Shown here piece after piece: positions 17,231-58,463 of a DNA stretch of 64,000 bases (within the stretch, counting starts at the first letter, position 1; each line of letters begins with the position of its first letter). The stretch comes from an uncultured Parabacteroides sp. (lineage in GTDB: Bacteria; Bacteroidota; Bacteroidia; Bacteroidales; Tannerellaceae), in NCBI GenBank assembly GCA_934725305.1, contig CAKVBA010000003.1, positions 40,877-104,876 on the forward strand, in the 5' to 3' direction. A program made the position numbers and the translations under genes. The notes beneath the pieces are model-generated. The model did not search any database. It worked only from the letters and a program-made list of their open reading frames with translations, and was not told the origin of the DNA.

Positions 17231-17574
17231 TTATTGTAATTTTTCAGTGTTGCTATTGGCGGAAAACAGGAGATGAATCCATCAAAAGTAATGGGTGATT
17301 CCGTTGGAATTGACAGGCAAATCTGTCTTGGTCTAAACAGCCTGTAAAACAATGTTATAGGCTATCTTTCAGGGGTCTATAGACTTCTTGGGATTAGTCT
17401 ATAGACTTTTTCAAAAAAGGGTAGGGACTTTTCTGAAATTGGGTAGGCACTCCGTTCGGATTGGGTAGGCACTCCGTTGGAATTGGGTAGGCACCCAATT
17501 CCCGTCAATAAACGAATCCATTTTACTTGGGTTAATAGCTTTCTGGCTTCTTGTTGGCTTATTGTGCTTTTTAT
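17231..17574 (+). repeat. Repeat B, copy 1 (344 bp)
   Basis: The element begins TTATTGTAATTTT and ends CTTATTGTGCTTTTT. Inside are two TCTATAGAC palindromes (one the full AGTCTATAGACT at 17396-17407), then GGGTAGGGACTTTT. Three tandem units of about 21 bp follow, built on ATTGGGTAGGCACTCCGTT, the last being the small palindrome ATTGGGTAGGCACCCAAT. Other copies are at 31934-32274, 46369-46713 and 58122-58463. It fills the gap between susC and the acyl-CoA ligase gene. Confidence 0.75.
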
Positions 17575-17741
17575 AAATCCAAATGAGAAGGCATTCCGTT
17601 CGGACGATGAGGTTATACATATACATATATATAGTATATAATAATACCGGAGTTGTGGGTAAATTCTATCCGGAAACCTCCTTTTTCCTGTTTAAGTTTA
17701 AGATAAAGAGAGAGATGCTTCGGAAATTCTGCTTTCTTGCG

Positions 17742-17749
17742 TATATTTG
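17742..17749 (+). promoter_or_regulatory. Promoter -7 element of the acyl-CoA ligase gene
   Basis: TATATTTG matches TAnnTTTG, 22 bases before the ATG at 17772. A -33 TTTG is not obvious. Confidence 0.5.
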
Positions 17750-17771
17750 TGCTGGAATTCGTATTTGAACT

Positions 17772-19439
17772 ATGATTAAAGAAAACTTCATCAAAATCTA
17801 CGAGGAGAGTTTCCGGGAAAACTGGAACTTGCCCGCATTGACTGATTACGGCAAAGGTACGACATTCACCTATGGTGAGATGGCTGAAGAGATAGCACGA
17901 ATACACCTGATGTTCGAAGCCTGTCAGATACGTCGGGGCAATAAGATTGCCTTGATCGGAAAAGATAGTGCCCGTTGGTGTATTGTCTATATGGCAGCTG
18001 TGACCTACGGAGCTATAATCGTTCCCATTTTACAAGATTTCAATCCGAATGATGTGCATCACATCATCAACCACTCGGAGTCGGTTTTTCTGTTTGTCAG
18101 CGACCGCATCTGGGAAACGTTGGAAGAGGATAAGATAACAGAGGTGCGTGGAGTCTTCTCATTGTCTGATTTCCGTTGTTTGCACCAGCGTGATGGCGAA
18201 AACATTCAGAGACTGCTGAAGACATTAGATGATAAGATGGCCGAACGCTATCCCAAGGGTTTCTTTAAAGAAGATATAGCCTATGCCGAATTGTCGAATG
18301 ACAAAGTGGTGCTTTTGAACTATACTTCCGGAACGACCGGATTCAGTAAAGGGGTTATGCTGACCGGTAACAACCTGGCCGGTAATGTCACCTATGGCCG
18401 CGAGTTGGGTGTGCTGTTCCGTGGCGACCGTGAGCTTTGCTTCTTGCCGTTGGCTCATGCCTATAGCTGTGCCTTCAACTTCCTGGTGCCTTTGGCCGTG
18501 GGTGCTCATGTCTATCTACTGGGCAAGCTGCCTTCGCCCAAGATCTTGTTGAAAGCCTTTGAAGAGGTGAAGCCCAACCTGATCTTGACCGTTCCGTTGA
18601 TTCTGGAAAAGATCTATAAGAAGATGATCGCTCCGCAACTGAACAGACGTTCCTTGCGCTTGGTACTGAACATTCCATTGCTGGATAGCCGTATCTATGC
18701 CAAGATTCGCAAGCGTTTGATTGATGCGATGGGTGGACGTTTCCGTGAAGTGATTGTAGGTGGTGCCGCTATGAACCAAGAGGTGGCCGATTTTCTTTAT
18801 AAGATTAAATTCCCCTTCACCATTGGTTATGGAATGACCGAGTGTGGTCCTTTGATCAGCTATGACCATAACGATGTATATGTATCGGGCTCTTGCGGAC
18901 AGATTCTGAAAGGAATCATGCAGGTGCGTATCGACTCAGAAGATCCATATAATAAGGTAGGAGAGATTCAGGTGCATGGCGAGAATGTGATGAAGGGCTA
19001 TTATAAGAATGAAGAGGCTACAGCCAATGTCTTTACAGACGACGGTTGGTTGAAGACCGGCGACCTGGGTACCATTGATGCCAATAACCGCATCTACATC
19101 CGTGGCCGTTGCAAGAGTATGATTTTAGGCCCGAACGGACAGAACATCTATCCGGAAGAGATAGAATCGAAGCTGAACAACTTGCCGTTTGTGATGGAGA
19201 GCGTGGTGATTGAACGAAACGGAAAACTGATAGGCTTGGTTTATCCCGATTATGACACCGTGGACAGTACGGGTATTTCGCATGACGATCTGCCGATTAT
19301 TATGGAAGAAAACCGTGTAGAGCTGAATAAATTGTTGGCTCCTTATGAATCTGTCTCGCAATTGCAGCTTTATCCGACAGAGTTTGAAAAAACTCCGAAA
19401 CGAAGCATCAAGCGCTATTTATACGAGAATTATTCGTAA
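17772..19439 (+). CDS. Long-chain fatty acid--CoA ligase (AMP-binding)
   Basis: It activates fatty acids to acyl-CoA through an acyl-adenylate. The 555-residue product has the ANL-superfamily landmarks: the P-loop LNYTSGTTGFSKGVMLT near residue 180, the aromatic/TE motif GYGMTECGPLIS near residue 353, and GWLKTGDLG plus the hinge RGRCKSM near residue 420-445. The C-terminal lysine region is KTPKRSIKRYL. No signal peptide or membrane segment is present, so it is probably cytosolic or peripheral. It stands alone, after a repeat-rich gap. The acyl chain length cannot be read from the sequence. Confidence 0.9.
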   Translation: MIKENFIKIYEESFRENWNLPALTDYGKGTTFTYGEMAEEIARIHLMFEACQIRRGNKIALIGKDSARWCIVYMAAVTYGAIIVPILQDFNPNDVHHIINHSESVFLFVSDRIWETLEEDKITEVRGVFSLSDFRCLHQRDGENIQRLLKTLDDKMAERYPKGFFKEDIAYAELSNDKVVLLNYTSGTTGFSKGVMLTGNNLAGNVTYGRELGVLFRGDRELCFLPLAHAYSCAFNFLVPLAVGAHVYLLGKLPSPKILLKAFEEVKPNLILTVPLILEKIYKKMIAPQLNRRSLRLVLNIPLLDSRIYAKIRKRLIDAMGGRFREVIVGGAAMNQEVADFLYKIKFPFTIGYGMTECGPLISYDHNDVYVSGSCGQILKGIMQVRIDSEDPYNKVGEIQVHGENVMKGYYKNEEATANVFTDDGWLKTGDLGTIDANNRIYIRGRCKSMILGPNGQNIYPEEIESKLNNLPFVMESVVIERNGKLIGLVYPDYDTVDSTGISHDDLPIIMEENRVELNKLLAPYESVSQLQLYPTEFEKTPKRSIKRYLYENYS

Positions 19440-19534
19440 TGCCTTGATGTATAGATGGTTTTCCGTAAAATAAAAACAGACGGTAAACAATCTTTTTTGT
19501 AAGCAAGAAAAAAATTAAAAAAAACATGTGTATG

Positions 19535-19567
19535 TTGTGCAACATGTTTAATTAATATATACATTTG
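19535..19567 (+). promoter_or_regulatory. Promoter with operator-like palindrome before the small lipoprotein
   Basis: TTG at 19535-19537 and TACATTTG at 19560-19567 (22-base spacing) match the Bacteroides promoter. The -33 region lies in ATGTTG-TG-CAACAT (19533-19546), itself flanked by AAACATG and CATGTTT, so a repressor could bind here. The palindrome is seen; its role is inferred. Confidence 0.5.
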
Positions 19568-19618
19568 CACCGTTTTCAAGCGAGACAAAAATAAGGTTGT
19601 TTTAAAAATTAAAGGAAA

Positions 19619-19828
19619 ATGAAAAAATTAGTTGCATTTGTAGCTGTATTGGCAGCTGTATCATTTACATCATGTGGCAGCAAATCTGCAGAATCAACAG
19701 AACAGGCAGTAGAAACACCGGCAGTAGAAGAGGCTGCTCCTGCTGCTGAGATTGAAGCTGCTGATTCTACAGCAACAGAGGTAGCTCCTGCAGACTCAGC
19801 TGCTGTTGAAGCAGTTCCGGCTGAATAA
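19619..19828 (+). CDS. Small Ala/Glu-rich lipoprotein
   Basis: The 69-residue product has signal MKKLVAFVAVLAAVSFTSCG with lipobox SFTSC (Cys near residue 19). The mature part is low-complexity, almost all Ala, Glu, Val, Thr and Ser, with repeats such as EEAAPAAEIEAADSTA and no aromatic residues. It is strongly acidic and probably disordered, tethered in the envelope. Similar tiny lipoproteins are common and uncharacterised in Bacteroides. It has its own promoter and terminator, so it is a single-gene unit, perhaps highly expressed. Confidence 0.8.
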   Translation: MKKLVAFVAVLAAVSFTSCGSKSAESTEQAVETPAVEEAAPAAEIEAADSTATEVAPADSAAVEAVPAE

Positions 19829-19853
19829 TATTCAGCCTTGGTTGAGTAAGGAC

Positions 19854-19887
19854 AGTCTGTATGCGTTTCACATACAGACTTTTTTTG
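19854..19887 (+). terminator. Intrinsic terminator of the small lipoprotein gene
   Basis: AGTCTGTATG (19854-19863) pairs perfectly with CATACAGACT (19871-19880), followed by six or more T. Confidence 0.88.
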
Positions 19888-19922
19888 TATAAAAACATGC
19901 TAATAAATAAAAACAACGTTGT

Positions 19923-21983: not shown

Positions 21984-22017
21984 CGAGAGACGTGTAAGAA
22001 TATATCATGATACTAAG

Positions 22018-22057
22018 AAGGGGCTGTGTCGGATCAATCATTCTGACACAGCCCCTT
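22018..22057. terminator. Terminator after the outer-membrane receptor gene
   Basis: AAGGGGCTGTGTC (22018-22030) and GACACAGCCCCTT (22045-22057) form a perfect 13-bp stem followed by TGTTTT. It belongs to the GGGGCTG hairpin group also seen at 36612, 40688, 50112 and 56358. Confidence 0.82.
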
Positions 22058-22077
22058 GTTTTAGTGTAAGATGTTAC

Positions 22078-22182
22078 TTCCGTCTGCGCTTCGACATAGC
22101 CCGCTATGCCTTTAACGTAGCCATTGCAATCTGCTCAAAACAAGTACTAACAAGAATCGTAATCTAATGACCGAATTGGGAT
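22078..22182 (+). mobile_element. Repeat A, truncated copy 2
   Basis: It keeps the central hairpin (22084-22120) and the right end TCTAATGACCGAATTGGG, but the left third is missing and replaced by the preceding terminator region. The hairpin has compensating or wobble changes (CTGCG with CGTAG). The right end touches the marC stop codon. Confidence 0.6.
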
Positions 22183-22829
22183 TAATGAGATATAGCCTCC
22201 TGAATGATATTGGTCAAAATAGGCTTCAGACCACTGGCGAAGCTCTCAACCGCAATCACCATTACAATCAGACCCATGAGTCGCATCATTACGTTGTTTC
22301 CTGTTTCCCCTAACAAGTTGACCAAACGGGTTGAGGCACGCAAGATGAAAAATGCAATCAGATAGACAAAAGCAATCATACCAATTAATACGCCCTTGCT
22401 GGCATAAGTGGTAGCATCGTCCATCAACATGAAGGCATTGGCGATAGCGCCGGGTCCACAAAGCATCGGAATAGCCAATGGTGTGATGCTGATATCGTTG
22501 GCATAGGTTTTCACCTCTTCGTCTTTCAGTTTCGCATTGGAATAACGTGCCTGAAGCATATCAAAACCAATTTTGAAGATGATAAATCCACCGGCAATTC
22601 TGAATCCATTGGTAGAGATACCAAAGAACTTAAACAGGAATTGTCCTGAGATGGTGAAAGCCAATAGCGTCAGGAAGGCAGCAATTGTGGCTCGTTTAAC
22701 GATCGCTTTTCGTTCATTGTTGGTCAAACCTTGTGTCATCGTCAAGAAGACCGGCATTGTACCTAACGGGTTTGTCAATGTAAAGAACGAAGTGAAGCAT
22801 AATAATGCATAAGGTAAAAGTGTGTCCAT
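22182..22829 (-). CDS. MarC/UPF0056-family integral membrane protein
   Basis: The 215-residue product has six hydrophobic segments. It starts MDTLLPYALLCFTSFFTLTNPLGTMPVFLTMT, the MarC-family opening with the NPLG motif, and contains ISITPLAIPMLCGPGAIANAF, the second family signature. MarC proteins are inner-membrane proteins of uncertain transport function; the old link to multiple antibiotic resistance was not upheld. It follows the PNGase F-like gene by 13 nt and probably shares its transcript. Its 3' end abuts a repeat A remnant. Confidence 0.9.
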   Translation of the reverse strand: MDTLLPYALLCFTSFFTLTNPLGTMPVFLTMTQGLTNNERKAIVKRATIAAFLTLLAFTISGQFLFKFFGISTNGFRIAGGFIIFKIGFDMLQARYSNAKLKDEEVKTYANDISITPLAIPMLCGPGAIANAFMLMDDATTYASKGVLIGMIAFVYLIAFFILRASTRLVNLLGETGNNVMMRLMGLIVMVIAVESFASGLKPILTNIIQEAISH

Positions 22830-22842
22830 TTTATATAAGTTT

Positions 22843-24090: not shown

Positions 24091-24094
24091 GTTC

Positions 24095-29118: not shown

Positions 29119-31662
29119 TCAACCGCACCGCGAAGCCCCGCAGTTTGTACAGATGAGGCATCCTTCCTGATAAATCAATGTCTCAAATCCGCAATTGGGG
29201 CAAGTCTGTCCTTTGGCTTCTGTTCCGTTGGGCAGATACTTCTTCAAAGCTCGTTCAACACCATTTTTCCAAGTGTTGATAGATTCGTTGTTCAGCTCCA
29301 TGCCTTGTACCAGTTTAATAACCTGATCGATTGGCATGCCATAGCGTAATACTCCTGAAATCAGCTTGGCATAGTTCCAATATTCCGGGTCGAATTTTCC
29401 ATCCAAACCTTCGATGGTCATCTTGTAGCCACGTTTGTTCTTGAACTGGAAGTCGTAATGCTTCTTGCCATCTTCGTCGTAACTCTTGATGATTGATCCT
29501 TTGGAGATATTCTTCGGAAGCATGATGCCCTCTTCGTCATCGGCAAGACCTGTGAAGATTTCATATGGACGACCATTCAGCAAGCCCACAAAGGCAATCC
29601 ATTTTTCACGGTTGTTCTGGAACTTTACAACGTCTGCCTCCAACTCTCTGGGTCGGGTAGCCACAATTACAGGTGGTTGCATACAGTGGCAGTCTTCTTT
29701 CTTTTTCTTCTTTTTTTCTGTTGCCAGCAACACTCCTGAACGGGAACCATCACGATAGACGGTACAACCCTTGCATCCACATTTCCATGCTTCTACATAT
29801 AGTGTATTTACCAAGTCTTCAGATACGTCCGCCGGTAGGTTGATGGTTACACTGATAGAATGGTCAACCCATTTCTGGATACGGCCTTGCATACGAACCT
29901 TCTGCAGCCAATCGACATCATTAGAGGTCGCTTTGAAGTAGGGCGATTTGGCAATTAGGTTGTCAATTTCGTCTTGTGTATATCTTTTGGTGACAGAATA
30001 GCCGTTGGCCTGCATCCATGTGACAAACTTGTGATGGAATACTACATATTCTTCAAATGCGTCTCCGGTTTCATCAACGAAATCCACACGGGCTTCGGCA
30101 TCGTTCGGATTGACTTTGCGGCGACGTTTATATACAGGCAGGAATACCGGCTCAATACCGGATGTTGTCTGTGTCATCAAACTGGTCGTTCCGGTAGGAG
30201 CGATGGTCAAACAGGCAATGTTGCGTCGGCCATACTGAACCATATCTTCATACAGTGCCGGATCAGCTTCGCGTAAGCGATTGATGAACGGATTCTGCTT
30301 CTCACGTTCGGTGTCATAGATTTCGAAGGCACCACGCTCTTTGGCCAACTCAACAGATGAGCGATATGCTGCCAAAGCTAATGTCTTTTGAATCTCTTCG
30401 GCACGGTCGGTTGCCTCTTCTGTACCGTAGCGCAGGCACAATGCTGCCAGCATATCTCCTTCAGCAGTGATACCAACACCCGTACGGCGACCTTGCAATG
30501 TCTTTAATTTGATCTTTTCCCACAGATGACGTTCACTCTGTTTTACCTCCATCGATTCCGGGTCGGAATCAATCTTTTCTAAGATCTTTTCGATCTTTTC
30601 CGCTTCCAGATCAATGATATCATCCATGATACGTTGAGCCAGATGAACATGTTTCTTGAACAGTTCATAATCGAAGTAGGCCTCAGGAGTGAATGGATTT
30701 ACCACATACGAATAGAGATTGATTGCTAACAGACGGCAACTGTCGTATGGACAGAGAGGAATCTCGCCACAAGGGTTGGTTGATACTGTGCGAAACCCAA
30801 GGTCGGCATAAGAGTCCGGGACGGATTCTCTCAGGATGGTATCCCAAAAGAGTACACCCGGTTCGGCTGATTTCCATGCATTATGGATAATCTTTTTCCA
30901 CAAAGTCTGGGCATCAATCTGTTTGACATAAAGTGGATCGTTTGAATCGATGGGATACTGCTGCATATAGGTAGAACCGTTCACTACTGCTTGCATAAAC
31001 TCATCATCGATTTTGACAGATACATTGGCACCTGTTACTTTTCCTTCAACCATCTTGGCATCAATGAAAGACTCAGAGTCGGGATGTTTGATGGAGACAG
31101 AAAGCATCAAGGCTCCGCGGCGGCCATCTTGAGCCACTTCACGAGTAGAGTTGGAATAACGTTCCATAAAGGGAACCAATCCTGTTGACGTCAATGCTGA
31201 GTTCTTGACAGGAGATCCTTTAGGACGAATATGAGAGAGGTCATGGCCTACACCTCCGCGGCGTTTCATCAATTGCACCTGTTCTTCGTCAATACGAATA
31301 ATAGCGCCGTAAGAGTCTGCTGATCCATCGAGTCCAATAACGAAACAGTTTGAGAGAGAGGCAATCTGATAGTCGTTGCCAATTCCGGTCATAGGGCTTC
31401 CTTGCGGAATGATGAAGCGGAAATGGTCGAACAGATCGAACAATACTTGTTCGGATAGGGGATTGGGATACTTTCTCTCAATACGAGCAATTTCGTTAGC
31501 TAAGCGTTGATGCATATCTTTGGGTGATTTCTCATAAATGTTACCAAATGCATCTTTTAGAGCGTATTTGTTGACCCACACTTTGGCCGCAAGTTCATCG
31601 CCCGTAAAATAGTCTAAGGAAGCTTTGTATGCTTCTTCAAATGTATATCTCTTTCGATCCAC
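29119..31662 (-). CDS. nrdJ: Adenosylcobalamin-dependent (class II) ribonucleotide reductase
   Basis: It reduces ribonucleotides to deoxyribonucleotides using coenzyme B12 and needs no oxygen. The 847-residue product opens directly with the reductase core (no N-terminal ATP-cone is visible). It has the loop TSTGLVPFMERYSNSTREVAQ, the active-site region NPCGEIPLCPYDSCRLLAINL and the ACLTIAPTGTTSLM motif. A lysine run (about eight residues, near residue 655) links to a C-terminal part with CPNCGFETLIYQEGCLICTNCG, a zinc-ribbon-like end with redox cysteines. I looked for a cobalamin riboswitch upstream and did not see one. Confidence 0.93.
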   Translation of the reverse strand: MDRKRYTFEEAYKASLDYFTGDELAAKVWVNKYALKDAFGNIYEKSPKDMHQRLANEIARIERKYPNPLSEQVLFDLFDHFRFIIPQGSPMTGIGNDYQIASLSNCFVIGLDGSADSYGAIIRIDEEQVQLMKRRGGVGHDLSHIRPKGSPVKNSALTSTGLVPFMERYSNSTREVAQDGRRGALMLSVSIKHPDSESFIDAKMVEGKVTGANVSVKIDDEFMQAVVNGSTYMQQYPIDSNDPLYVKQIDAQTLWKKIIHNAWKSAEPGVLFWDTILRESVPDSYADLGFRTVSTNPCGEIPLCPYDSCRLLAINLYSYVVNPFTPEAYFDYELFKKHVHLAQRIMDDIIDLEAEKIEKILEKIDSDPESMEVKQSERHLWEKIKLKTLQGRRTGVGITAEGDMLAALCLRYGTEEATDRAEEIQKTLALAAYRSSVELAKERGAFEIYDTEREKQNPFINRLREADPALYEDMVQYGRRNIACLTIAPTGTTSLMTQTTSGIEPVFLPVYKRRRKVNPNDAEARVDFVDETGDAFEEYVVFHHKFVTWMQANGYSVTKRYTQDEIDNLIAKSPYFKATSNDVDWLQKVRMQGRIQKWVDHSISVTINLPADVSEDLVNTLYVEAWKCGCKGCTVYRDGSRSGVLLATEKKKKKKEDCHCMQPPVIVATRPRELEADVVKFQNNREKWIAFVGLLNGRPYEIFTGLADDEEGIMLPKNISKGSIIKSYDEDGKKHYDFQFKNKRGYKMTIEGLDGKFDPEYWNYAKLISGVLRYGMPIDQVIKLVQGMELNNESINTWKNGVERALKKYLPNGTEAKGQTCPNCGFETLIYQEGCLICTNCGASRCG

Positions 31663-31933: not shown

Positions 31934-32274
31934 ATAAAATACAATAAGCAACAGGCAGACAAGAGACTACTAATCCGGTCAAAAAGGGGTAAGCTATTTC
32001 CGAAAATTGGGTAATTACTCCGTCCGAACGGAGTAGTTATTCCGTCCCAACGGAGTGCCTACCCATTTTCAAAAAAGTGCCTACCCATTTTTGAAAAAGT
32101 CTATACCCATTTTCAAAAACTCTATAGGCTATTGAATAACAGCCTGTAACCTCTTTTTTCAGGGTGCTTGGACCGAGATAGATTCATCTGTCAAGTCTGG
32201 CGAAATTGCCCGTCGTTTCTGTCGGATCCGTTACCGCTTTTCGCAAATAATAATCCGGATAAAAATACAATAAC
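31934..32274 (-). repeat. Repeat B, copy 2 (341 bp, inverted orientation)
   Basis: On the plus strand it starts ATAAAATACAATAAG and ends AAAAATACAATAAC, the complement of the ends of copy 1. It contains ACTCCGTCCGAACGGAGT (a perfect 7-bp palindrome arm pair), GCCTACCCATTTT units and a GTCTATACCC unit. Compared with copy 1, several TCTATAGAC palindromes are decayed. It lies between nrdJ and dnaA. The following 32275-32537 shows no gene. Confidence 0.72.
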
Positions 32275-32537
32275 TATCTCTTCGATGGTTATAGGACAGT
32301 ATGTTGAGACAACCAATGAAAACATCATATATGGATTTCTACAGTTTTTCAATCATCCGGAAAAGGATTGGGAAACTCTTTTGGACGTGAGTTAGAAAGA
32401 AGATTGTCAATTGTCTATTTTTTTTGATGGGGCTTGGAATAGCAAAATAAAACTCGACCATTGAATATACAATGACCGAGCGATATTCTTTTATATTCAA
32501 TCGATTTTATCGGACAGCAATAATTTTAAGTCTGTTG

Positions 32538-43067: not shown

Positions 43068-46031
43068 TTAATCTGAAGAACTCTTTTCCTTTCTCGAATC
43101 TACGCTTTTCTTATCCATCGCCTTATAGATGGCATCTTGAATGCGCGTGCGAATGTTTAAACCACTGAGTTTATGGTTGTCTCTGCTTGGATGAATGCGG
43201 TTGCTGAGAAAGATGTAGATTATCTGATTGTCGGGATCAACCCAAAAGCATGTGCCTGTAAATCCGGTATGTCCAAATACCGAATTGGGAGCCAACTGTC
43301 CGCAAGGCGAACCTTTGACGTTTCCGGGTTCCGGCTTGTCGAAGCCTAATCCTCGGCGGCTGTTGGGACTTTTGTTTTGGGTAAACATGCGTGTGGTTTC
43401 GCTGGATAGATAAGATTCGCCACCATAACTGCCGTTGTTGAGGTAGAGCTGCAACACTTTGGCCAAGTCGTTGGCATTGGAAAAGAGGCCGGCATTACCT
43501 GAAACTCCTCCTTGAAAGGCGGCTGCCTCGTCATGTACGTAGCCTCGAATCAGTTGATGACGCAAGGTGATGTCGTTCTCAGTGGGGACAATTTGCAGTG
43601 TATCCATCCGTTTAAGTGGATTGTAGGTTGTGTGCCAAGCTCCTAACCGGCGAAAGAACTGTTGGTCGAGCAGATGGTCCATCGGTTGTTGCATCCATCG
43701 CTCGCTCATTATCTTCAGGAGGATGAAATTGGTACAGCCATATTTGTAGCGTCCGCGTATGCCCATTTTCGATTCTTTGATTGATTGAATGATGGAGTCT
43801 TGAAACTGGGTGTTCACAAACAGCCCTTTGGCAATCTCTTGAGTGAATTCGGCTCTTTTCTTGGTAGAGACCAAAGTGCTGTCAAACTGCAGAGGGCGTT
43901 TGCCTCTGACCAATGCCTTGCGGTAGTAGTTGATGGTTGGTGTCAGTCCCGACTGGTGGTAGAGCAGTTCTTTGATTGTTAAGTTCTGTTTGTTCGACTT
44001 CTTTAATTCCGGGATGTGTTGAGAAATCTTGTCGTTTAGATTGAATTTCTTATTGTCGTAGGCTTTCATGACAGCCAGCAATGTGCCACAAGCCTTTGAA
44101 GCTGAGGCCAGGTCATAGACGGCATTCTCATCCACCTTCTGCTTTAGGTTGTTGTCGTAGTAACCAAAAGATTGGTTATAAACCACTATACCATCTTTGG
44201 CTACCAACACCTGACAGCCGGGATAGGCTTTTTTATCGACTCCCTCTTGGGCAATTTCGCTGATTATATCCAGTTGTTCAGCATTCAGCCCAACCTCTTC
44301 TGGCTCATGATATCCCAAACGGTTCTTTTCGGTAGAGATGCCTGTGCCAACGGGGTAGAGTTCAGGAATAGAGACTGGCAGTTTTCCTTTGACACTGATG
44401 CCTCCAAAGATGGCTTGTGCCGCATATTTCTGAGCCAATGGAGTGTTCTCATAGGCCATAATGACCGACTTTGCATTTTGGATAGATGCTTTATATTTCT
44501 TGCAAAAATAGGGCAAGGTGAAGAAGGCATACACCAGATTCTTCTTAGCGGCCAACTGTTTCAGTGCGGCACTCTCCGGAATACGGACGGTGTGAACGCC
44601 GCAGACGATGACATCATATTTCATTAATTTATTATAGATGTCTTGTATCTGTGCAGGTGTTGAGCGGCGAGTGATGCTGAAGCAAGCCAAGGAGTCGTAG
44701 CTGTTTAGTATCTGTTGAAACTCACAGTGGACCGATTCTCCGATTGAAAGCACTGCCATCTTCCGGGTGTCGAGTTGCTTCAGCGGAACAAAGTTCTCTC
44801 GGTTTTGAAGCAGTGTGATGGCTTCGGCATTCAATCGTGAGGCCAACCATTCGGCATGGGCTGAGTTTAATCGTTTGGACAGTTCTTTGATTTCGACGGG
44901 ATGATAATCGGCAAGTCCTAACATATATTTATAGCGTAGTATCTTTTTGCATCGTGCTTCGATATCCTTTTGGGCAAGCAACCCCGTTTCGATAGCTGCT
45001 TTCACGGCCGCAAAATCTGTAAAAGGTGCAGCAGGAGCGAGCAGGACGTCATTCCCGGCCTTAAGAGCCAGCACCGAAGGATTGTCCGATTTCTTGGTGG
45101 TTGCACCTTTCATTGCTAAGGCATCGGTAAAGCAGAGACCTTGGAAACCCAATTCTTGTTGCAGCAGATCGGTTACGACAGCTTTGGATAGAGATACGGG
45201 ATGTTTACGCCGTTTCTCCAGACTGGGCACAAACAGGTGGGCTGTCATAACTCCTCCGAAACCCGATTTGATGTACTTCTTGAAAGGCTGCAGTTCAATG
45301 CTGTCGAGTCTGGAGCGGCTGTGATAGATGGCCGGAAGGGTTTCATGAGAATCCTCAAAAGTATCGCCGTGGCCAGGGAAATGTTTGGCAACTGAAAGAA
45401 TACCGCTGTTTTCCAAACCTCGGGCGTAGGCCAACCCTTTTTGGGTGACTGCATCCGGGTCTTCTCCGAACGAGCGCAGACCAATTATCGGGTTATCTAC
45501 ATTGCTGTTGATGTCGATGTCGGGCGCAAAGTTGACATGAATACCCATCTCTTTGCACTGTCTGCCAACCTCTTCACCATAGAGCTCTATCAACTCATTA
45601 TCTTTGATGGCTCCTAACATCATGTTTTTAGGGAAGCGAGTGGTTCCGCTGAGGCGCATAGATAAACCCCATTCGCCATCGAGTGAAACCATGATAGGAA
45701 TGCGTGAAACCTTCTGCAGGCGGTTGGTGATTTCTGCTTGGGTCACCGGATTGCCTTTATGAAACAAAATGCCACCAATCTTCATCTCATGGATAAAGCG
45801 CATCAGTCGTTGCATATTGCGGGAGTCTGATTTGGGATCGGCAATCACCATGAAGAGTTGTCCGATTCGTTCGTCCAGGCTCATGCGGTTGAAGACAGAA
45901 TCGACCCAGTGGTTCATCTGTTCGCGGTTAACATGGCTATATAGATTAGGCTCTGTTTGGGCTTTCATTGATCCTGATACAAGAAGAAATAGGCCGAGTA
46001 TGAGAGCTATAGCTTTCTTTTGTGTTTCCAT
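43068..46031 (-). CDS. GH3 beta-N-acetylhexosaminidase-type enzyme fused to a serine beta-lactamase-like domain
   Basis: The 987-residue secreted protein (signal ALILGLFLLVSGSMKAQ) has a GH3 domain of the NagZ type: KHFPGHGDTFEDSHETLP near residue 215 (catalytic His/Asp loop) and the nucleophile in CFTDALAMKG near residue 300. A second GH3 subdomain follows to about residue 560. From about residue 570 a class C beta-lactamase/DD-peptidase-like domain begins, with SxxK as SASK near residue 642. The usual YxN appears as YGC in KYGCTNFILL, and HTGFTG lies near the end. Peptidoglycan or chitobiose-type fragments are likely substrates. Confidence 0.9.
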   Translation of the reverse strand: METQKKAIALILGLFLLVSGSMKAQTEPNLYSHVNREQMNHWVDSVFNRMSLDERIGQLFMVIADPKSDSRNMQRLMRFIHEMKIGGILFHKGNPVTQAEITNRLQKVSRIPIMVSLDGEWGLSMRLSGTTRFPKNMMLGAIKDNELIELYGEEVGRQCKEMGIHVNFAPDIDINSNVDNPIIGLRSFGEDPDAVTQKGLAYARGLENSGILSVAKHFPGHGDTFEDSHETLPAIYHSRSRLDSIELQPFKKYIKSGFGGVMTAHLFVPSLEKRRKHPVSLSKAVVTDLLQQELGFQGLCFTDALAMKGATTKKSDNPSVLALKAGNDVLLAPAAPFTDFAAVKAAIETGLLAQKDIEARCKKILRYKYMLGLADYHPVEIKELSKRLNSAHAEWLASRLNAEAITLLQNRENFVPLKQLDTRKMAVLSIGESVHCEFQQILNSYDSLACFSITRRSTPAQIQDIYNKLMKYDVIVCGVHTVRIPESAALKQLAAKKNLVYAFFTLPYFCKKYKASIQNAKSVIMAYENTPLAQKYAAQAIFGGISVKGKLPVSIPELYPVGTGISTEKNRLGYHEPEEVGLNAEQLDIISEIAQEGVDKKAYPGCQVLVAKDGIVVYNQSFGYYDNNLKQKVDENAVYDLASASKACGTLLAVMKAYDNKKFNLNDKISQHIPELKKSNKQNLTIKELLYHQSGLTPTINYYRKALVRGKRPLQFDSTLVSTKKRAEFTQEIAKGLFVNTQFQDSIIQSIKESKMGIRGRYKYGCTNFILLKIMSERWMQQPMDHLLDQQFFRRLGAWHTTYNPLKRMDTLQIVPTENDITLRHQLIRGYVHDEAAAFQGGVSGNAGLFSNANDLAKVLQLYLNNGSYGGESYLSSETTRMFTQNKSPNSRRGLGFDKPEPGNVKGSPCGQLAPNSVFGHTGFTGTCFWVDPDNQIIYIFLSNRIHPSRDNHKLSGLNIRTRIQDAIYKAMDKKSVDSRKEKSSSD

Positions 46032-46112: not shown

Positions 46113-46304
46113 AACCTAAATCGCTCATTAGAACGGAAAAAGTAAAACAGCTGAATATTTTATTCTTTCCAACTCTTGTCAGCATTTGTTTTGGCATCTT
46201 GCTTCCGCCTGCGTTTCGACATAGCCCGCTCCTTCAACGCAGTCATTGCAATCTGCTCAAAACAAGCACCAACAAGAATTGTAATCTAATGACCGAATTG
46301 GGTT
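46113..46304 (+). mobile_element. Repeat A, copy 3 (MITE-like)
   Basis: The ends AACCTAAATCGCTCATTAGA (46113-46132) and the complement of AACCCAATTCGGTCATTAGA (46285-46304) match at 17 of 20 positions as terminal inverted repeats, giving a 192-bp element. The central hairpin (46209-46242) keeps its outer arms but has lost four bases in the inner CATAGC/GCTATG arm. It lies upstream of the GH3 gene. Confidence 0.65.
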
Positions 46305-46368
46305 AAAAACGGCTGTTGTGATGCAGTCTGTTTTTTACACACACTAACAACGACGGTCGGAAGGAGTA

Positions 46369-46713
46369 GTTATTGTAATTTAGCGGGTCTATTTCTTATC
46401 AAAAACAGGTAACAAATCCGTTAGATACGATAGGTAACTTCGTTGGAATTGACGGATGAGTCTATCTTGGATCATGCACCCTTGAAAAAGATGCTATGAG
46501 CTGTTTTTCAAGGGTCTATAGCCTTTTTGGAATTAGTCTATAGACTTTCCGGAAAAAGGGTAGGGACTTTTTTGAAATTGGGTAGGCACTCCGTTCGGAT
46601 TGACTAGGCACTCCGTTGGAAATGGATAGGCACCCAATTTTCGGAAATAGACTACTCCTTTTTGACAGGATTAACGATCTTTTACCTGTCTATTGACTTA
46701 TTGTATTTTTTTT
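46369..46713 (+). repeat. Repeat B, copy 3 (345 bp)
   Basis: It starts GTTATTGTAATTT and ends CTTATTGTATTTTT. It has AGTCTATAGACT (46535-46546), GGGTAGGGACTTTT, then GGGTAGGCACTCCGTTCGG, a variant unit TAGGCACTCCGTTGGA, and TAGGCACCCAATTTTCGG. It has the same orientation as copy 1 and, like it, lies just downstream of a repeat A copy. Confidence 0.75.
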
Positions 46714-46915
46714 GATAGAACAAATATAAATCACCAAGTACTTTTAGATTTTTGGTCTGTTTTTGACGCACCGACATCCTAAACGAGTCTATGCCCTCCT
46801 TTTTTTGAATGCAGTTTGAGCACGTTCAAATACTATTCAATCCAGCTTTAACATCTTCTGCATAAAATTTCTCTAAAAATCAGCCTTTTTCTTTTTTGTA
46901 GATTTTCGTTGGGTA
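46714..46915. other. Gene-free interval with nested palindromes
   Basis: No gene is seen. Around 46805-46850 there is GAATGCAGTTTGAGC...GTTCAAATAC...TTCAATCC, resembling 16957-16998 (GAACGGGTTTTTGAA...TTTCAAAGG...TTCAACCCC) next to repeat A copy 1. Confidence 0.35.
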
Positions 46916-47270
46916 CTACGGATTTCCCAATTCCGCTGAATGAGGTTTTATCATGTAGTATCTTTGGAAGGGTATGGAAGTATAACGCAGCCGCCTATAA
47001 ATTTCCGCAGCCTGATCGATAGGCTCGGAACATAATCTGAGTATAAGACGTTCTCCCAAGGCGTTTCTCCTTTCCGTTGTAATTGCTTTTTGCGTGGAGA
47101 GTATGCGCTTTAGCTCCGTCCAATAATGATTGATTCCCTTCTGCTTTAGCTTGTAACGGATAGTGTTGACTATCCAATAGGCCAACAGACCAAAGAAAAG
47201 GAGAGCATCGGAGCTTTCATCTTTCTTATGATAAATGGGACGCAGTTTCAAGTCCGTTTTTAAATTTCTC
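46916..47270 (-). pseudogene. C-terminal remnant of an IS1634-like (IS4-superfamily) transposase
   Basis: About 115 residues remain, starting NLKTDLKLRPIYHKKDESS and continuing LLFFGLLAYWIVNTIRYKLKQKGINHYW and ILSTQKAITTE. This matches the C-terminal part of Bacteroides IS1634-type transposases as I recall them. The catalytic DDE core and inverted repeats are missing, so it is dead. The frame is open a little further upstream, to 47320, without similarity. It marks an old insertion next to repeats A and B. Confidence 0.75.
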
Positions 47271-47358
47271 CTTAAAAACAGGAATTTTATTATTATTGTG
47301 CAGCATTTTAGATGCAGCAAACGTCTATTTATTAAGTAACTTTTAAAGATAATACGGT

Positions 47359-51770: not shown

Positions 51771-51789
51771 TCTCTGCTGAGAATATAAT

Positions 51790-51836
51790 AAAGAGGAAAG
51801 TATCGAAAATCTTTATCTCGGTACTTTCCTCTTTTC
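51790..51836 (+). terminator. Terminator of guaB
   Basis: AAAGAGGAAAGTA (51790-51802) pairs perfectly with TACTTTCCTCTTT (51822-51834). Confidence 0.88.
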
Positions 51837-51917
51837 TATTCTATGTCTTTACTAATCCTGACACAACCTTTGGATCAAAATCCGAAGGCGACATGACATT
51901 GCAATTAGAAAACGAAT

Positions 51918-52400: not shown

Positions 52401-52454
52401 AATTCTGTTCTTTTTATGTTTTGTATTAGACGCACTTTCTTATAATTCTTATAG

Positions 52455-52493
52455 ATAATGGTTTGTCCCTTTTCTTATAGAACAAACCATTAT
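52455..52493 (-). terminator. Hairpin between hsp20 and ferritin
   Basis: ATAATGGTTTGT (52455-52466) pairs perfectly with ACAAACCATTAT (52482-52493). A T-run is weak, so it could be a terminator of hsp20 or an operator for ferritin. Confidence 0.55.
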
Positions 52494-52518
52494 ATGTTTT
52501 CGTTCATCTGAGCCGCGA

Positions 52519-52953
52519 TTATTTGACTTCGATTACTTTGGTGCTTTTCTTTTCCTCGGCAGTCTTTTTAGGAACGTCGATGGTAAGTACACCATTTTCT
52601 ACTTTAGCCTCGATTTTGTCAGGATCGACATTGTCAGGCAAAGCCATAGCCTGCTGGAACTGACTATAAGAAAATTCGCGTCTCAAATAACGACTTTCTT
52701 TCTCTTCTTTATTTTTCTCTTCTTTTTCTTCTTTCTTTTCCATTGAAATGACCAGATTGTCATTTTCATCTACATGAATATTGAAATCATCTTTTGTCAT
52801 TCCCGGAGCAGCGACTTCTATACGATAATCGGTTTCACTCTCAACAACGTTGATGGCTGGAGCTGTAGTGTTTGCTTTGATCATCCAGTCGTTGTCAAAC
52901 AAATCATTAAATACATACGGTAACCAGTTCTGACTTCTTCTCATCGGTGTCAT
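52519..52953 (-). CDS. Small heat-shock protein (Hsp20/alpha-crystallin family)
   Basis: Such chaperones hold unfolding proteins during stress. The 144-residue product starts MTPMRRSQNWLPYVFNDLFD. The alpha-crystallin domain runs from about residue 35 (INVVESETDYRIEVAAPGM) to VENGVLTIDVPK. An unusual Glu/Lys-rich insert (MEKKEEKEEKNKEEKE) lies in the middle. The ATG is preceded by TTGGAGGACTG, a strong Shine-Dalgarno site for this phylum. No CIRCE element was seen upstream (52954-53181 otherwise shows nothing). Confidence 0.92.
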   Translation of the reverse strand: MTPMRRSQNWLPYVFNDLFDNDWMIKANTTAPAINVVESETDYRIEVAAPGMTKDDFNIHVDENDNLVISMEKKEEKEEKNKEEKESRYLRREFSYSQFQQAMALPDNVDPDKIEAKVENGVLTIDVPKKTAEEKKSTKVIEVK

Positions 52954-53181
52954 AATTACAGTCCTCCAATTAAATTATATATTATTTGTTTCATTCTCTC
53001 TGAATCCATCCTTTTTCAATTCTGAATTCACTTAGGGTACTTGCAAAGTGTGTGCCAGTTGGAAAATAAGCAATATTGACATAAATAGTGGCATAAAATG
53101 AACTATTTTGACATGTGTTATGGTTATAGAAATATAGTATTACTATCTTTATGTCGTTGTATATCTATAATTAAAGGAAAT

Positions 53182-54633: not shown

Positions 54634-54681
54634 AGGGATAATCTAAAGGGGAAAGGCTTCGTGTGATTGGCAAATTTTGAG

Positions 54682-54689
54682 TAAGTTTG
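54682..54689 (+). promoter_or_regulatory. Promoter -7 element of the fucose genes
   Basis: TAAGTTTG is an exact TAnnTTTG match, 21 bases before the mutarotase ATG. Confidence 0.5.
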
Positions 54690-54710
54690 TTGTCTTTAAT
54701 AGAAAACGTT

Positions 54711-55055
54711 ATGAAAAGATATTGTCAAACATTAGACTTAAAAGAGGGTGAGGCGATTGCTGCCGAGTATGAACATTGGCATTCGCCAGAACATATATGG
54801 CCGGAGATTCCGGAAGGGATTCGAGCTGTGGGTATCTTGAATATGGAGATTTATCGATTGGGCTCTCGTCTCTTTATGATTGTTGAAACACCGGATGATT
54901 TTGACTGGGATGCCGCTTTTTCCCGACTGTCACAGATGGACAGACAGGCAGAGTGGGAGGACTTTGTTGCCCAATATCAGCGAGTAGAGCCGGGAAGTTC
55001 TTCGGCGCAGAAGTGGCAGTTGATGAAGCGAATATTTTCTTTGGATTTGAAATAA
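54711..55055 (+). CDS. L-rhamnose/L-fucose mutarotase (RhaM, DUF718 family)
   Basis: It interconverts alpha and beta anomers of a 6-deoxyhexose after uptake. The ATG at 54711 gives 114 residues starting MKRYCQTLDLKEGEAIAAEYEHWHSP, with the conserved YEHWHSPEHIWPEIPEGIRAVGI and the C-terminal segment RLSQMDRQAEWEDFVAQYQ. Because the next gene, 9 nt away, is a FucP-type transporter, L-fucose is the more likely sugar. The family call is firm; the sugar is inferred. Confidence 0.85.
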   Translation: MKRYCQTLDLKEGEAIAAEYEHWHSPEHIWPEIPEGIRAVGILNMEIYRLGSRLFMIVETPDDFDWDAAFSRLSQMDRQAEWEDFVAQYQRVEPGSSSAQKWQLMKRIFSLDLK

Positions 55056-55064
55056 CAGGTCATT

Positions 55065-56300
55065 ATGAAGATTAAACGAAAATCATTGGTGGCAGCTCCG
55101 GAAGGGAAATCTTATCTGATTCCTTTTGTTTTGATAACCAGTCTCTTCTTGTTGTGGGGATTTGCCCATGGCTTATTGGATGTATTGAACAAACATTTTC
55201 AGGGAGTCTTTACGATGACTAAGGCTCAGAGTGGATTGGTGCAGTTTTCAACCTATATTGCCTATTTCTTGATGGCACTTCCTGCCGGAGCTTTTATGAA
55301 GAAGTATGGCTATAAGCGGGGAATCATTGCCGGGCTGTTGCTATTTGCTTTGGGTGCTTTTGCCTTTATTCCAGCAGCCTTTGTCCATTCGGCAACCCCG
55401 TTTCTGATAGCTCTCTTTGTGATTGCCTGTGGATTGTGCGTGTTGGAAACGGCAGCGAATCCCTATTCTACTATTTTAGGACCTGCGGAGTCGTCGGCTC
55501 AGCGTTTGAATCTTTCCCAGTCGTTCAATGGATTGGGATGGATATTAGGACCGCTTGTCGGTGGATGGCTCATCTTTGGCGCTCCCGAAGGTGATTCTTT
55601 TGCGTTGGCCAAGCCCTATATATTGGTTGGATGTATCGTATTGTTGGTGGCTACGCTGTTTGTCTTTACGAAATTACCGGAGGTAAAACTGGAGAGTCCG
55701 AAAAAGACTTTGCCAGGAAATGTGTCAGCAGATAAGTCCGTTACGCCTGCCGTTTCCATGTGGCGTCACCCTCAGTTTGTGCGCTCTATCATCGCGCAGT
55801 GTTGTTATTGTGCAGCACAGACTGGTATCTTCAGTTTCTTTATTAATTATGTGACAGAGGTGGATACGACTATGAGTAATATGGAGGCTTCGCGCATCTT
55901 GGCTTTTGGAGGAATGGCTTTGTTTATGATTGGTCGTCTTAGTGGAAGCTTCTCGATGCGTTGGATGGCGCCGGCCCGTCTGTTGACATTGTTCTCGTTG
56001 GCCAATGTGATTTGTATGGCATTGGTGGTTGCCTCGTTAGGTGCAGTTTCTATGTATGCTCTCTATTTCTCCTTTTTCTTTATGTCAATCATGTTTCCTA
56101 CCATCTTTGCGTTGGGACTTGAGGGAATGGGAGACTATACGAAGAAAGCCTCATCCTATATTGTAATGGGTGTGGCTGGAGGAGCATTCAGTCCGATGTT
56201 GATGGGTTATATAGGAGAGACGAATATGGCCATTGGTTTTGTTGTGCCTTTGGTTGCTTTCCTCTATATATTATACTTTGCCTTGCGTTGTCAACGGTAG
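55065..56300 (+). CDS. fucP: FucP-type L-fucose:H+ symporter (MFS)
   Basis: The 411-residue product has twelve hydrophobic segments. The opening LITSLFLLWGFAHGLLDVLNKHFQ and the region VLETAANPYSTILGPAESSAQRLNLSQSFNGLGWILGP are typical of the FucP/FHS family, including the conserved Asn-Pro and acidic residue in the first helix region. It imports L-fucose, released from host mucin glycans, across the inner membrane. It forms an operon with the mutarotase. Fucose kinase and isomerase genes are not in the window. Confidence 0.9.
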   Translation: MKIKRKSLVAAPEGKSYLIPFVLITSLFLLWGFAHGLLDVLNKHFQGVFTMTKAQSGLVQFSTYIAYFLMALPAGAFMKKYGYKRGIIAGLLLFALGAFAFIPAAFVHSATPFLIALFVIACGLCVLETAANPYSTILGPAESSAQRLNLSQSFNGLGWILGPLVGGWLIFGAPEGDSFALAKPYILVGCIVLLVATLFVFTKLPEVKLESPKKTLPGNVSADKSVTPAVSMWRHPQFVRSIIAQCCYCAAQTGIFSFFINYVTEVDTTMSNMEASRILAFGGMALFMIGRLSGSFSMRWMAPARLLTLFSLANVICMALVVASLGAVSMYALYFSFFFMSIMFPTIFALGLEGMGDYTKKASSYIVMGVAGGAFSPMLMGYIGETNMAIGFVVPLVAFLYILYFALRCQR

Positions 56301-56357
56301 TAAACTTTTGGCGGATTCATTCTCGGTGTCTTACATTTTGCTAATTCTGACATACTT

Positions 56358-56397
56358 AAAGGGGCTGCATCAAAATAGATATTTTGGCAGCCTCTTT
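56358..56397 (+). terminator. Terminator of fucP (GGGGCTGCATCAAAA hairpin family)
   Basis: AAAGGGGCTGC (56358-56368) pairs with GCAGCCTCTTT (56387-56397; one G-U), with CAAAAT/ATTTTG inside. Confidence 0.82.
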
Positions 56398-56430
56398 AAC
56401 ATAGCCCTTGATTTAAGTATCTTTTTCGTT

Positions 56431-57276
56431 TCAATCCTGAGGCTGTTGTAGCATCTGATACAGCTTATCCAACTTCGGAGCCATAATGATTTCGGTACGT
56501 CTGTTCTTGCTTCTGCCTTCAGTTGATTCGTTGGTCGCAATTGGAATATATTCACTGCGTCCGCATGGCTGAATCTGTAATGGATTCACGCCATAATCCT
56601 TTGTCAAGATACGGACAACAGAGGTTGCACGAATCACACTCAGATCCCAGTTGTCTTTGAATATAGCTGTATGGATAGGCTTGTTGTCGGTATGGCCCTC
56701 GATGAATACATCAATATCAGTCTGCTTGTTTAAGACCTCTGCCAGTTTAGCCAATGCCTCTTTGCCTCGTTTGTCCACCTTGGCGCTGCCCGATTGAAAC
56801 AATAGTTTATCAGACATGGCCACGTAGATTTTACCATCTTTTTCCCGGATGTTCAGTTCGTCACTGCTAAAGCCCAACAAAGCATCCTTTACACTGCTCA
56901 ACAGATTCTGTACTTTCTCTTTTTGAGCGTTGATCATCTCTTGCAGCTGGTTGATGGTGCGTTCGCGTTCGTCCAACTCCTGCATTTTCTGGGATAATAA
57001 ACTGTTTAATTTATCCTGTTCGCCCATATTAGCATCCAGCAAGGTGCGGTAGTTGCGGATATCGCTTTTCATACGAGCGGTATCTTGCTGCAAGGCTGAC
57101 AGTTGTGCCAATAACTTTTCATTCTCGTCTTGTGTGTCTGCCAGTATCTTTTTCAGACAATTGGCACGTTCGATTGCTTCGAGTCGTCCGTTTTCTGCAA
57201 GAAGATATTTCTTTTTGCTTACGCAGGCGGTGCAGCAAAGCAGCAGGGCAGCACTAAGGCAAAGTGTCTTTTTCAT
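56431..57276 (-). CDS. OmpA-like peptidoglycan-binding lipoprotein
   Basis: The 281-residue product has signal MKKTLCLSAALLLCCTACVS with lipobox CTAC. A long coiled-coil (about residues 25-125, KKILADTQDENEKLLAQLSAL and repeated heptads) leads to an OmpA_C domain: DKLLFQSGSAKVDKRGKEAL, DVFIEGHTDNKPI and GRSEYIPIATNESTEGRSKN(R)RTEI. That domain binds diaminopimelate in peptidoglycan, so the protein should link the outer membrane to the wall. It is followed by the fucP terminator in the opposite direction and preceded by mscL. Confidence 0.9.
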   Translation of the reverse strand: MKKTLCLSAALLLCCTACVSKKKYLLAENGRLEAIERANCLKKILADTQDENEKLLAQLSALQQDTARMKSDIRNYRTLLDANMGEQDKLNSLLSQKMQELDERERTINQLQEMINAQKEKVQNLLSSVKDALLGFSSDELNIREKDGKIYVAMSDKLLFQSGSAKVDKRGKEALAKLAEVLNKQTDIDVFIEGHTDNKPIHTAIFKDNWDLSVIRATSVVRILTKDYGVNPLQIQPCGRSEYIPIATNESTEGRSKNRRTEIIMAPKLDKLYQMLQQPQD

Positions 57277-57318
57277 AGGATTCTATAATTTGTCTATTGT
57301 AATAAGGAGAAAACGTTA

Positions 57319-57759
57319 TTATTTGTTTTGTTCTTTTTTCAATAGGTCACGAATTTCAGTAAGCAGCTGAATGTCAGCAGGAGGAGCAGGAGGTGTAGGA
57401 GGTGTGGCCGGCTGTTCCTCTTTTTTCTTGCGGCTTAATGTGTTGATACCTTTTACTAATAAGAATACCGCAAAGGCGATAATCAAGAAGTCGAATGTCA
57501 CTTGGATAAAGTTACCATAATTGATAGATACATCCGGAGAAACAACTTGATCACCTTCCATAACGGCTGCCTTCAATGTCAATTTTAGATCTGTGAAGTT
57601 GACTCCACCAACCAATAGTCCAATAGCCGGCATAATTACGTCTCCTACTATAGAAGTGACAATTTTGCCAAATGCGCCACCGATAATGACACCGACTGCC
57701 ATATCTACGACATTACCACGCATGGCAAATTGCTTGAATTCTTGTAAAATTTTTCCCAT
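57319..57759 (-). CDS. mscL: Large-conductance mechanosensitive channel MscL
   Basis: MscL opens under membrane tension to relieve osmotic downshock. The 146-residue product begins [30 protein letters not shown], the canonical first helix with the glycine-rich pore ([18 protein letters not shown]). A second membrane segment near residue 80 ([17 protein letters not shown]) and a C-terminal helix ([14 protein letters not shown]) follow a Pro-rich linker. Its length is normal. It lies 42 nt upstream of the OmpA-like gene. Confidence 0.96.
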
Positions 57760-57787
57760 ATTCCTTTTTGTTTTTAGATTTATTTGA

Positions 57788-57795
57788 CAAAAATA
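57788..57795 (-). promoter_or_regulatory. Promoter -7 element of mscL
   Basis: TATTTTTG on the minus strand, 28 bases before the mscL ATG. The interval 57796-58121 shows no gene. Confidence 0.5.
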
Positions 57796-58121
57796 TAGAT
57801 TCTATTTGGATAATGCAATTTAAAGGAAAGGTTATCTCTTAGTTTGAGGTATAGAAATCAGGATAAATTATAGAATGATGTGGTTTCTTATGGATAGCTA
57901 TTCTGTTCGGATAGGATAGCTTCTTTGTTATAAAAGCTCGCATCCTTTTGAGAAAAGAACGGCATCTTTTTCCAAAAAGCATGGCGGTGTGTTATAAATG
58001 TAAACTGCTACGATCAATATAACGCACCATCGCGTTGGAAAGTCATTTTTATGCTACTTTATAATATCAAAGGGCATCGTCTAAAACACCAATGTCCTCT
58101 ATCGTCAACGCGTATCACTTC

Positions 58122-58463
58122 ATAAAATACAATAAGTCATCAAGCCTGCAAGAGGCTATTAATCCTATCAAAACGGAGTAGGCTATTTTTGGAAATTGGG
58201 TGCCTACTCAATTCAAACGGAGTAGGCACCCAATCCGAACGGAGTGCCTACCCAATTTCAAAAAAGTCTATACCCTTTTCTCAAAAAGTCTATAGACTAA
58301 TTCCGGAAAGTCTATAGACTATTGAAATACAGCCTGAAACCTTGTTTTTGAAGGTGCTTGAGTCGTGGCGGATTTATCCGTCATTTTTGGTAAAGTTGTC
58401 TGTCAATCCGGATGGATTTATAGCTCGTTTTAGCAAAAACAGACTCGCGAAAAATACAATAAC
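58122..58463 (-). repeat. Repeat B, copy 4 (342 bp, inverted orientation)
   Basis: On the plus strand it starts ATAAAATACAATAAG and ends AAAAATACAATAAC. It holds a perfect 15-bp inverted repeat, ATTGGGTGCCTACTC (58195-58209) with GAGTAGGCACCCAAT (58220-58234), and two AGTCTATAGACT palindromes (58287-58298, 58309-58320). The interval 58464-58797 shows no clear gene. Confidence 0.75.

Follow-up and report, generated by a model that had tools for sequence, protein, structure and literature searches.

Repeat B, a dispersed intergenic element with a core of 22-bp units in a Parabacteroides-like genome, and similar arrays in Tannerellaceae

What kind of sequence recurs, at almost constant length, in four intergenic regions of a single stretch of a bacterial chromosome? 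The stretch in question (hereafter the window) comprises 64,000 nucleotides of contig CAKVBA010000003.1 (positions 40,877 to 104,876) of an uncultured Parabacteroides sp. (Tannerellaceae), and the sequence, named Repeat B in a preliminary description, was counted within this 64-kb window. The element is composed of (i) left and right ends carrying direct TTATTGT words, (ii) less conserved arms, and (iii) a core of approximately eight 22-bp units. As the best explanation, held tentatively and with slightly less than even confidence, we propose that Repeat B is a non-coding, non-autonomous, mobile-like element that may have spread in one Parabacteroides-like lineage, the core of which may represent phased sites for dimeric DNA-binding proteins.

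Four copies of one discrete element

After reversal of c2 and c4, the four copies (c1 to c4; Table 1) aligned end to end. They are 341-343 bp long and pairwise 68-74% identical, with 0-3 gap events per pair against 89-109 substitutions, which upholds the earlier statement that there are four copies of nearly equal length, in both orientations and with common ends. An nhmmer profile built from these same copies recovered each of them nearly full length (E 1.6e-104 or better), and an ungapped self-comparison returned copy segments of 157-332 nt, the inverted repeats being 72-76% complementary and the direct repeats 75-77% identical. Among the two-letter alignment columns, 101 are private to one copy and 35 are shared two and two; the relationships of the copies are star-like, with a weak grouping of c1 and c3 (17 of the 35 columns).

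Invariant columns of the four-copy alignment make up 92% of the left end (columns 1-13), 80% of the right end (329-343), 63% of columns 146-300 and 26% of columns 14-60. With 24 of 28 columns invariant, the ends are more conserved than randomly drawn columns (p 0.0001; 20,000 draws), as expected for sites that need to be recognized by a protein. They had been described as direct repeats with TTTT on both sides; the repeats are indeed direct, but the common word is TTATTGT, preceded by G at the left end and by C at the right. The end word TTATTGTATTTT (at most one mismatch) occurs eight times in the window, seven of these being element ends, while 100 shuffles gave a mean of 1.08 and a maximum of 4; the over-representation is thus due to the element copies. 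The eighth end, on the right of c1 (TTATTGTGCTTT), has two mismatches to this word, and in relatives the word showed no consistent excess over a reversed control.

The view of Repeat B as one discrete element, for which no name was found, is supported. In Rfam searches the only match in the window at the gathering threshold was an S4 leader situated elsewhere, and no match was found at E values up to 5 over positions 46250-46830 (c3 only). The copies occupy the four longest intergenic gaps of the window (between open reading frames of at least 110 aa), and their location in long gaps upstream of genes, although correctly reported, is weak as evidence. The flanks of c2 and c4 are unrelated. The evenness of copy spacing is matched by approximately 1% of random placements, a post hoc figure for four copies on which we do not rely.

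Structure and coding potential of the core

Tandem Repeats Finder assigned a period of 22 to all four copies, with approximately eight units in each, so the unit length of about 21 bp given previously has to be corrected. The units are contiguous, without spacers of the length found in clustered regularly interspaced short palindromic repeats (CRISPR), and do not qualify as a CRISPR array. They run in tandem, and only some of them contain GGGTAGG. Short dyads are present in the unit centers, e.g., GTCTATAGAC, some being less perfect, e.g., GGGTAGGCACTCC. Units were neither gained nor lost among the four copies, though these differ by approximately 30%. Likeness between units at the same position in different copies is 0.68-0.93, compared with 0.25-0.78 between neighbors within a copy, which indicates that the array existed before the copies spread.

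No reading frame is open across the whole of any of the four copies. On the minus strand of the element, within its first 193 nt, c1, c3 and c4 have in common a stop-free frame of 57 codons (64, 57 and 63 aa, respectively), and c2 has 44 aa in the corresponding frame after a one-base shift. This frame is not read as a gene but as a by-product of the array, because 50 of 1000 column shuffles yielded a comparable shared open frame, variability among c1, c3 and c4 is not raised at third codon positions (18 of 57, against 15 and 18 at the other two), and these three copies have no common start codon. In line with the earlier statement that no protein is encoded, no coding signal was found.

Distribution of the element among relatives

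The ribosomal protein genes of the window, as judged by eye, and its dnaA indicate a member of the Bacteroidales. Among 80 loci listed, identity to the DnaA protein of the window reaches 90% at most, and Parabacteroides and other Tannerellaceae come closest. BLAST (E 0.001) found no copy of the element in 123 genomes of the family, a single 37-base match (L082) looking like chance, and a search of 13 genomes of named relatives, which had no positive control and is therefore a weak negative, also found none. Neither nhmmer of the relatives' dnaA loci (E up to 10) nor blastn with c4 against phage and plasmid collections returned a match. An exact core word was absent from genome contigs and a second word from viral contigs; the single exact match of the core word in viral contigs was discarded as chance, the sequence there being coding-like. 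Patterns of two GTCTATAGACT and of two GGGTAGGYA were each found in none of the 123 genomes.

The dnaA-nrdJ gap, occupied by c2 in the window, is 14-280 bp long in 32 of 32 relatives (only those whose nrdJ match starts at residue 1 were counted, four partial-match rows being excluded), compared with 875 bp in the window, and has no room for the element. In 13 aligned dnaA-nrdJ gaps the window is approximately 600 bases longer, which is more than the element alone and does not fix the insertion point. Since no copy was found by BLAST in the 123 genomes and these gaps leave no room for one, the element looks young in this lineage. No array repeating at a distance of 22 bp (lag 22) was seen ahead of mscL in any of 15 loci (a match was obtained in 15 of 16 genomes) or ahead of the acyl-CoA synthetase gene in any of 16, the highest score being 9; gene order around both genes varies among relatives, so that these are not clean empty sites for c4 and c1.

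Arrays with a 22-bp step in other genomes

Intergenic 22-bp arrays of other sequence in relatives were first indicated by a sequence-only profile of the element (R1). Over the 123 genomes, 79 R1 matches had E ≤ 1 under stricter filters; these E-values are rough and many of the matches must be chance, e.g., L089, which lies in coding-like sequence. Twenty-two R1 places were judged by eye, namely 10 of 30 loci (viewed at the locus middle, which misses the match where a contig is cut, as in L085) and 12 more. Convincing arrays included the CTATAG-type in genomes G050 and G052, and GGGTAGGCA units in G050 and G001; looser units were seen in G005 and G072 (GGGTAGTTACC and GATAGGCACTC). A possible left end in a G050 match had a low alignment posterior and is suggestive only.

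Contiguous stretches totaling 1.2 Mb were then scanned. G050 and G001 (P. gordonii, locus L005) contributed 400 kb each, and G052 and G044 200 kb each, the last picked for a chance BLAST match; the G050 stretch and the second G001 stretch include R1 matches. Intergenic self-similarity peaked at lag 22, with a second rise at 44, in the window, in G050 and in both G001 samples. A lag-22 score of 14 or more was reached by 8 of 114 gaps in G050, 13 of 116 in G001, 5 of 75 in G052 and 5 of 65 in G044 (31 of 370 in total), and by 4 of 28 in the window. In the same four relatives, the 18 control lags (15-20 and 24-35) gave 14 arrays together, 11 of them in G050, and lags 21 and 23 gave eight each. 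Lag-22 arrays were found in 6 of 923 genes, and Markov shuffles gave 0-0.4 per sample. The 31 arrays are not all clean dyad arrays, one being a 7-bp repeat and some having fewer than three units. Arrays of unrelated sequence have the same 22-bp step.

At a score of 15, a set of 39 dnaA loci from Tannerellaceae had arrays in 13 of its 214 gaps, whereas the 196 gaps in 41 other loci contained no real array, a single row of N having been dropped. In outgroup stretches, lag-22 gaps numbered 0 of 53 in Paludibacter, 2 of 46 in Prevotellaceae and 1 of 22 in Bacteroidaceae, and in further Bacteroidales 1 of 29 (G125), 0 of 36 (G128) and 1 of 17 (G130, where the array is a simple repeat); some outgroup arrays are convincing dyads (GTCCGTAAGTACGGAC). 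The class thus reaches beyond Tannerellaceae but is commoner in the Tannerellaceae sampled. No description of such arrays in Bacteroidales was found among titles and abstracts, a search outside which most subscription papers lie.

Several further observations concern the unit sequences. In G050 and G052, arrays at several loci of one genome share a unit sequence, e.g., AAACACCGGTGTTT/AAACATATATGTTT, and in G050 arrays at several loci share GTTTCATG..CATGAAAC units. The 400-kb G050 stretch also contains short intergenic arrays with a 7-bp-like unit (AAATCAT) common to several gaps (307898-310571 and 332506-332622; L128 and L129).

Dyad symmetry exceeded that expected by chance: in a comparison with shuffles of the 22 columns, 14 of 33 arrays were matched by at most 10 of 200 shuffles, where approximately 1.7 would be expected, and 8 of 33 by at most 2 of 200. 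In one orthologous array, present in G050 and G052 and adjoining a putative murC start and murG end, the four units are in register with no internal gap, while about one quarter of the letters, estimated by eye, differ; two further orthologous pairs were seen by BLAST. Placement was counted on simple in-house gene calls. In 15 gaps between tandem genes the array lies at a median of 14 bp from the upstream stop codon and 121 bp from the next start, and is nearer to the stop in 12 (p 0.0002 versus uniform placement). In seven divergent gaps it is never less than 91 bp from either start (p 0.0065), and nine further arrays lie in convergent gaps. The four window copies are away from starts and not close to stops.

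Genomic context

Table 1. Repeat B copies, their ends and arrays, and other features of the window.
Feature	Positions	Strand	Size or sequence	Context or remarks	Basis
Copy c1	17230..17572	+	343 bp	TonB-dependent receptor gene 13193-16396 (-); AMP-binding (acyl-CoA synthetase-like) gene 17772-19439 (+)	alignment and nhmmer profile; flanks Pfam
Copy c2	31934..32274	-	341 bp	dnaA 32538-33935 (-); ribonucleotide reductase gene, here called nrdJ, 29119-31662 (-)	alignment and nhmmer profile; flanks Pfam
Copy c3	46369..46711	+	343 bp	glycosyl hydrolase 3/beta-lactamase-domain gene 43068-46031 (-); 205 bp beyond the copy, transposase C-terminal fragment 46916-47320 (-)	alignment and nhmmer profile
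Copy c4	58122..58463	-	342 bp	midway between mscL 57319-57759 (-) and AraC-type gene 58826-59953 (+)	alignment and nhmmer profile
Left end of c1	17230..17242	+	GTTATTGTAATTT
Right end of c1	17558..17572	+	CTTATTGTGCTTTTT
c1 array	17353..17528	+	~8 units	alignment columns 124-299; strongest 17375-17494
c2 array	31977..32151	-		strongest 32011-32119
c3 array	46492..46667	+		strongest 46514-46633
c4 array	58166..58341	-		strongest 58206-58321
S4-Bacteroidia ribosomal protein leader	5104-5142				Rfam
Second intergenic repeat	17038-17192; 22042-22191; 46158-46307		~150 bp	CTTCCGCCTGCGTTTCGACATAGCCCGCT ... AATGACCGAATTG
Small open frame	~32280-32400		QYVETTNENIIYGFLQFFNHPEKDWETLLDVS	beside c2

The second intergenic repeat lies approximately 40 and 60 bp before c1 and c3, respectively, in the same orientation, and occurs once alone after a MarC-family gene; it had no match at E 0.01 in 244 other sequences. 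The transposase fragment beyond c3 is of the IS1634 type; a relative is 98% identical over 83% of the length of the fragment, and one relative is named IS1634 family transposase, partial. The small open frame beside c2 looks coding-like by eye and has no Pfam match.

Possible nature of the element and alternative explanations

In the explanation that we prefer, Repeat B would have been spread by a trans-acting recombinase or transposase recognizing the TTATTGT ends; direct ends would be more reminiscent of site-specific recombination or of single-strand transposases than of DDE transposases. The in vivo helical repeat is approximately 11 bp, and the units may be recognition sites of dimeric DNA-binding proteins placed at intervals of two helical turns along one side of the supercoiled helix; binding of protein to the same face would most simply account for a 22-bp step retained despite unrelated sequences. 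As the arrays lie mostly away from start codons, they would probably serve less as promoter operators than in shaping chromosome structure, in insulation or at 3' ends. The core of Repeat B is one case of the wider class of intergenic 22-bp arrays observed in the Tannerellaceae genomes sampled. It is possible, though we regard it as doubtful, that Tannerellaceae, and less often other Bacteroidales, have a class of intergenic arrays, spread over the whole genome, that is characterized by geometry rather than sequence (approximately 3 to 8 dyad-like units set at a fixed 22-bp step, mostly by stop codons and away from starts), serving as phased sites for a chromosome-organizing or insulating protein, Repeat B being the mobile vehicle of one such array.

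Several observations weigh against this explanation. Of the alternatives named in the preliminary description, a non-autonomous transposon agrees best with the dispersal, the element being specific to the lineage, present in both orientations and flanked by unrelated sequence at c2 and c4, but no terminal inverted repeats were found in the four copies, no target-site duplication was found (no identical word of at least 4 letters within 5 bases of both junctions in 4 of 4 copies), and no partner transposase was found, the IS1634-type and IS30-type elements examined in relatives having other ends. In the dyad comparison, c4 is the sole window array matched by at most 10 of 200 shuffles (8 of 200, the other three 39, 60 and 68). 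Unit dyads are often broken, with 161 one-side and 13 two-side breaks versus 20 compensated and 56 wobble cells. Three of the 15 tandem-gap arrays are nearer to the start, and arrays near stop codons could merely mark places that tolerate insertions. The DNA-binding protein is a predicted one, and G050, G001 and G052 were picked because profile R1 matched them.

Two known systems resemble the arrays in part. The origin of plasmid R6K has seven 22-bp iterons; like plasmid-origin iterons, the arrays consist of tandem units of approximately 22 bp, two turns apart, but they have many different sequences per chromosome and lie between ordinary genes. The earlier comparison with repetitive extragenic palindromes (REP) and bacterial interspersed mosaic elements (BIME) fits loosely: both are extragenic palindromes, often grouped. 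According to the report on those associated with RAYT transposases (GTAG and CGTC families; PMC3733652), they are 20-40 bp long, the GTAG type being a stem-loop with terminal GTAG, and mostly form head-head or tail-tail pairs, tandem head-tail order being absent or rare in most genomes, whereas that order is the rule in the arrays described here.

It is rather unlikely that the arrays are ordinary minisatellites, generated by slippage during replication and by drift, and that the element is a decayed, functionless repeat. The placement of the arrays where little is disturbed, the drift of their letters, and a G052 array (score 81) whose units are almost identical, resembling a recent expansion, agree with such an origin. 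However, lag 22 has 31 arrays while the 18 more distant lags average less than one each, and slippage is not known to prefer one period. Moreover, neither the four copies nor one orthologous pair differ in unit number, and the element ends are conserved.

We consider it unlikely that the arrays are transcribed and act as rows of RNA hairpins, be it as a stabilizer of the 3' untranslated region, a terminator or a small RNA. A structured RNA had been suggested before, and both strands of each copy do fold better than shuffled sequences (z -3.0 to -8.8). The plus-strand consensus structure, derived from the same four sequences, pairs 92.8% of cells, and 5 of its 76 pairs are changed on both sides (4 of 62 on the minus strand); five double-changed pairs are reached by 32 of 500 shuffles and the covariation score by 9 of 500, the covariation term being larger on the plus strand (-1.94 vs. 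-0.44). The location of tandem-gap arrays mostly just past stop codons would also suit an RNA. As evidence for an RNA these folding results are weak, since there are four sequences, the structure is derived from them, and dyads alone would make both strands fold well, as they do (alignment z -3.2 plus, -6.1 minus). Compensated changes between units numbered 20, compared with 17.8 +/- 3.3 in shuffles (49 arrays, two from a Prevotellaceae stretch), and the lack of an excess further weakens the hairpin explanation. Arrays also occur in the seven divergent gaps, where there is no 3' end, an exact 22-nt step has no evident need in RNA, and Rfam gave no match.

A classical miniature inverted-repeat transposable element (MITE) of a known insertion-sequence family present elsewhere in the genome is quite improbable: size, non-coding character, dispersal and intergenic location recall BrickBuilt of Porphyromonas gingivalis (PMC4596501), but the ends are direct rather than inverted, none of the four copies has a target duplication, and the IS1634-type and IS30-type ends examined differ from those of the element. 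BrickBuilt is a MITE with a leader and a tail around a tandem array of 23-nt units, which number 1 to 22.8 and expand and contract between strains; its terminal inverted repeats, 12 nt long, resemble those of ISPg elements of the IS5 family (PMC4596501). Repeat B resembles it in being an intergenic, non-coding, dispersed element of the same bacterial order with ends flanking a short-unit tandem array, and is set apart from that description by its direct ends, its 22-bp step and the constant unit number in four copies.

Two candidate partners were rejected. The IS30-type element that lies next to the best match in relatives (G050, L153/L083) has, in three copies, ends beginning TGCAAATTCAAC, unlike Repeat B, and TAATACAATAAAA on both sides of the L153 copy is its 13-bp target duplication. 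Its family name is our reading (Pfam HTH_38 above the cut-off, rve below). A full-length relative of the IS1634-type transposase, in G059, has inverted ends TTAACCCAACTTTG, again unlike the element. Near-identical IS30-type copies lie at L233-L238 of G050, with clear 13-bp target duplications at L234, L235 and L236; such a duplication is long for the IS30 family.

Implications

If the fixed 22-bp step reflects a DNA-binding protein, there would be approximately one site array per 40 kb (31 in 1.2 Mb) in the Parabacteroides-type genomes sampled, and these genomes would possess a layer of chromosome organization for which neither a name nor a factor has been found. Should the arrays be passive, it would still have to be explained why repeats of so many sequences have a single period, for which slippage offers no ready account.

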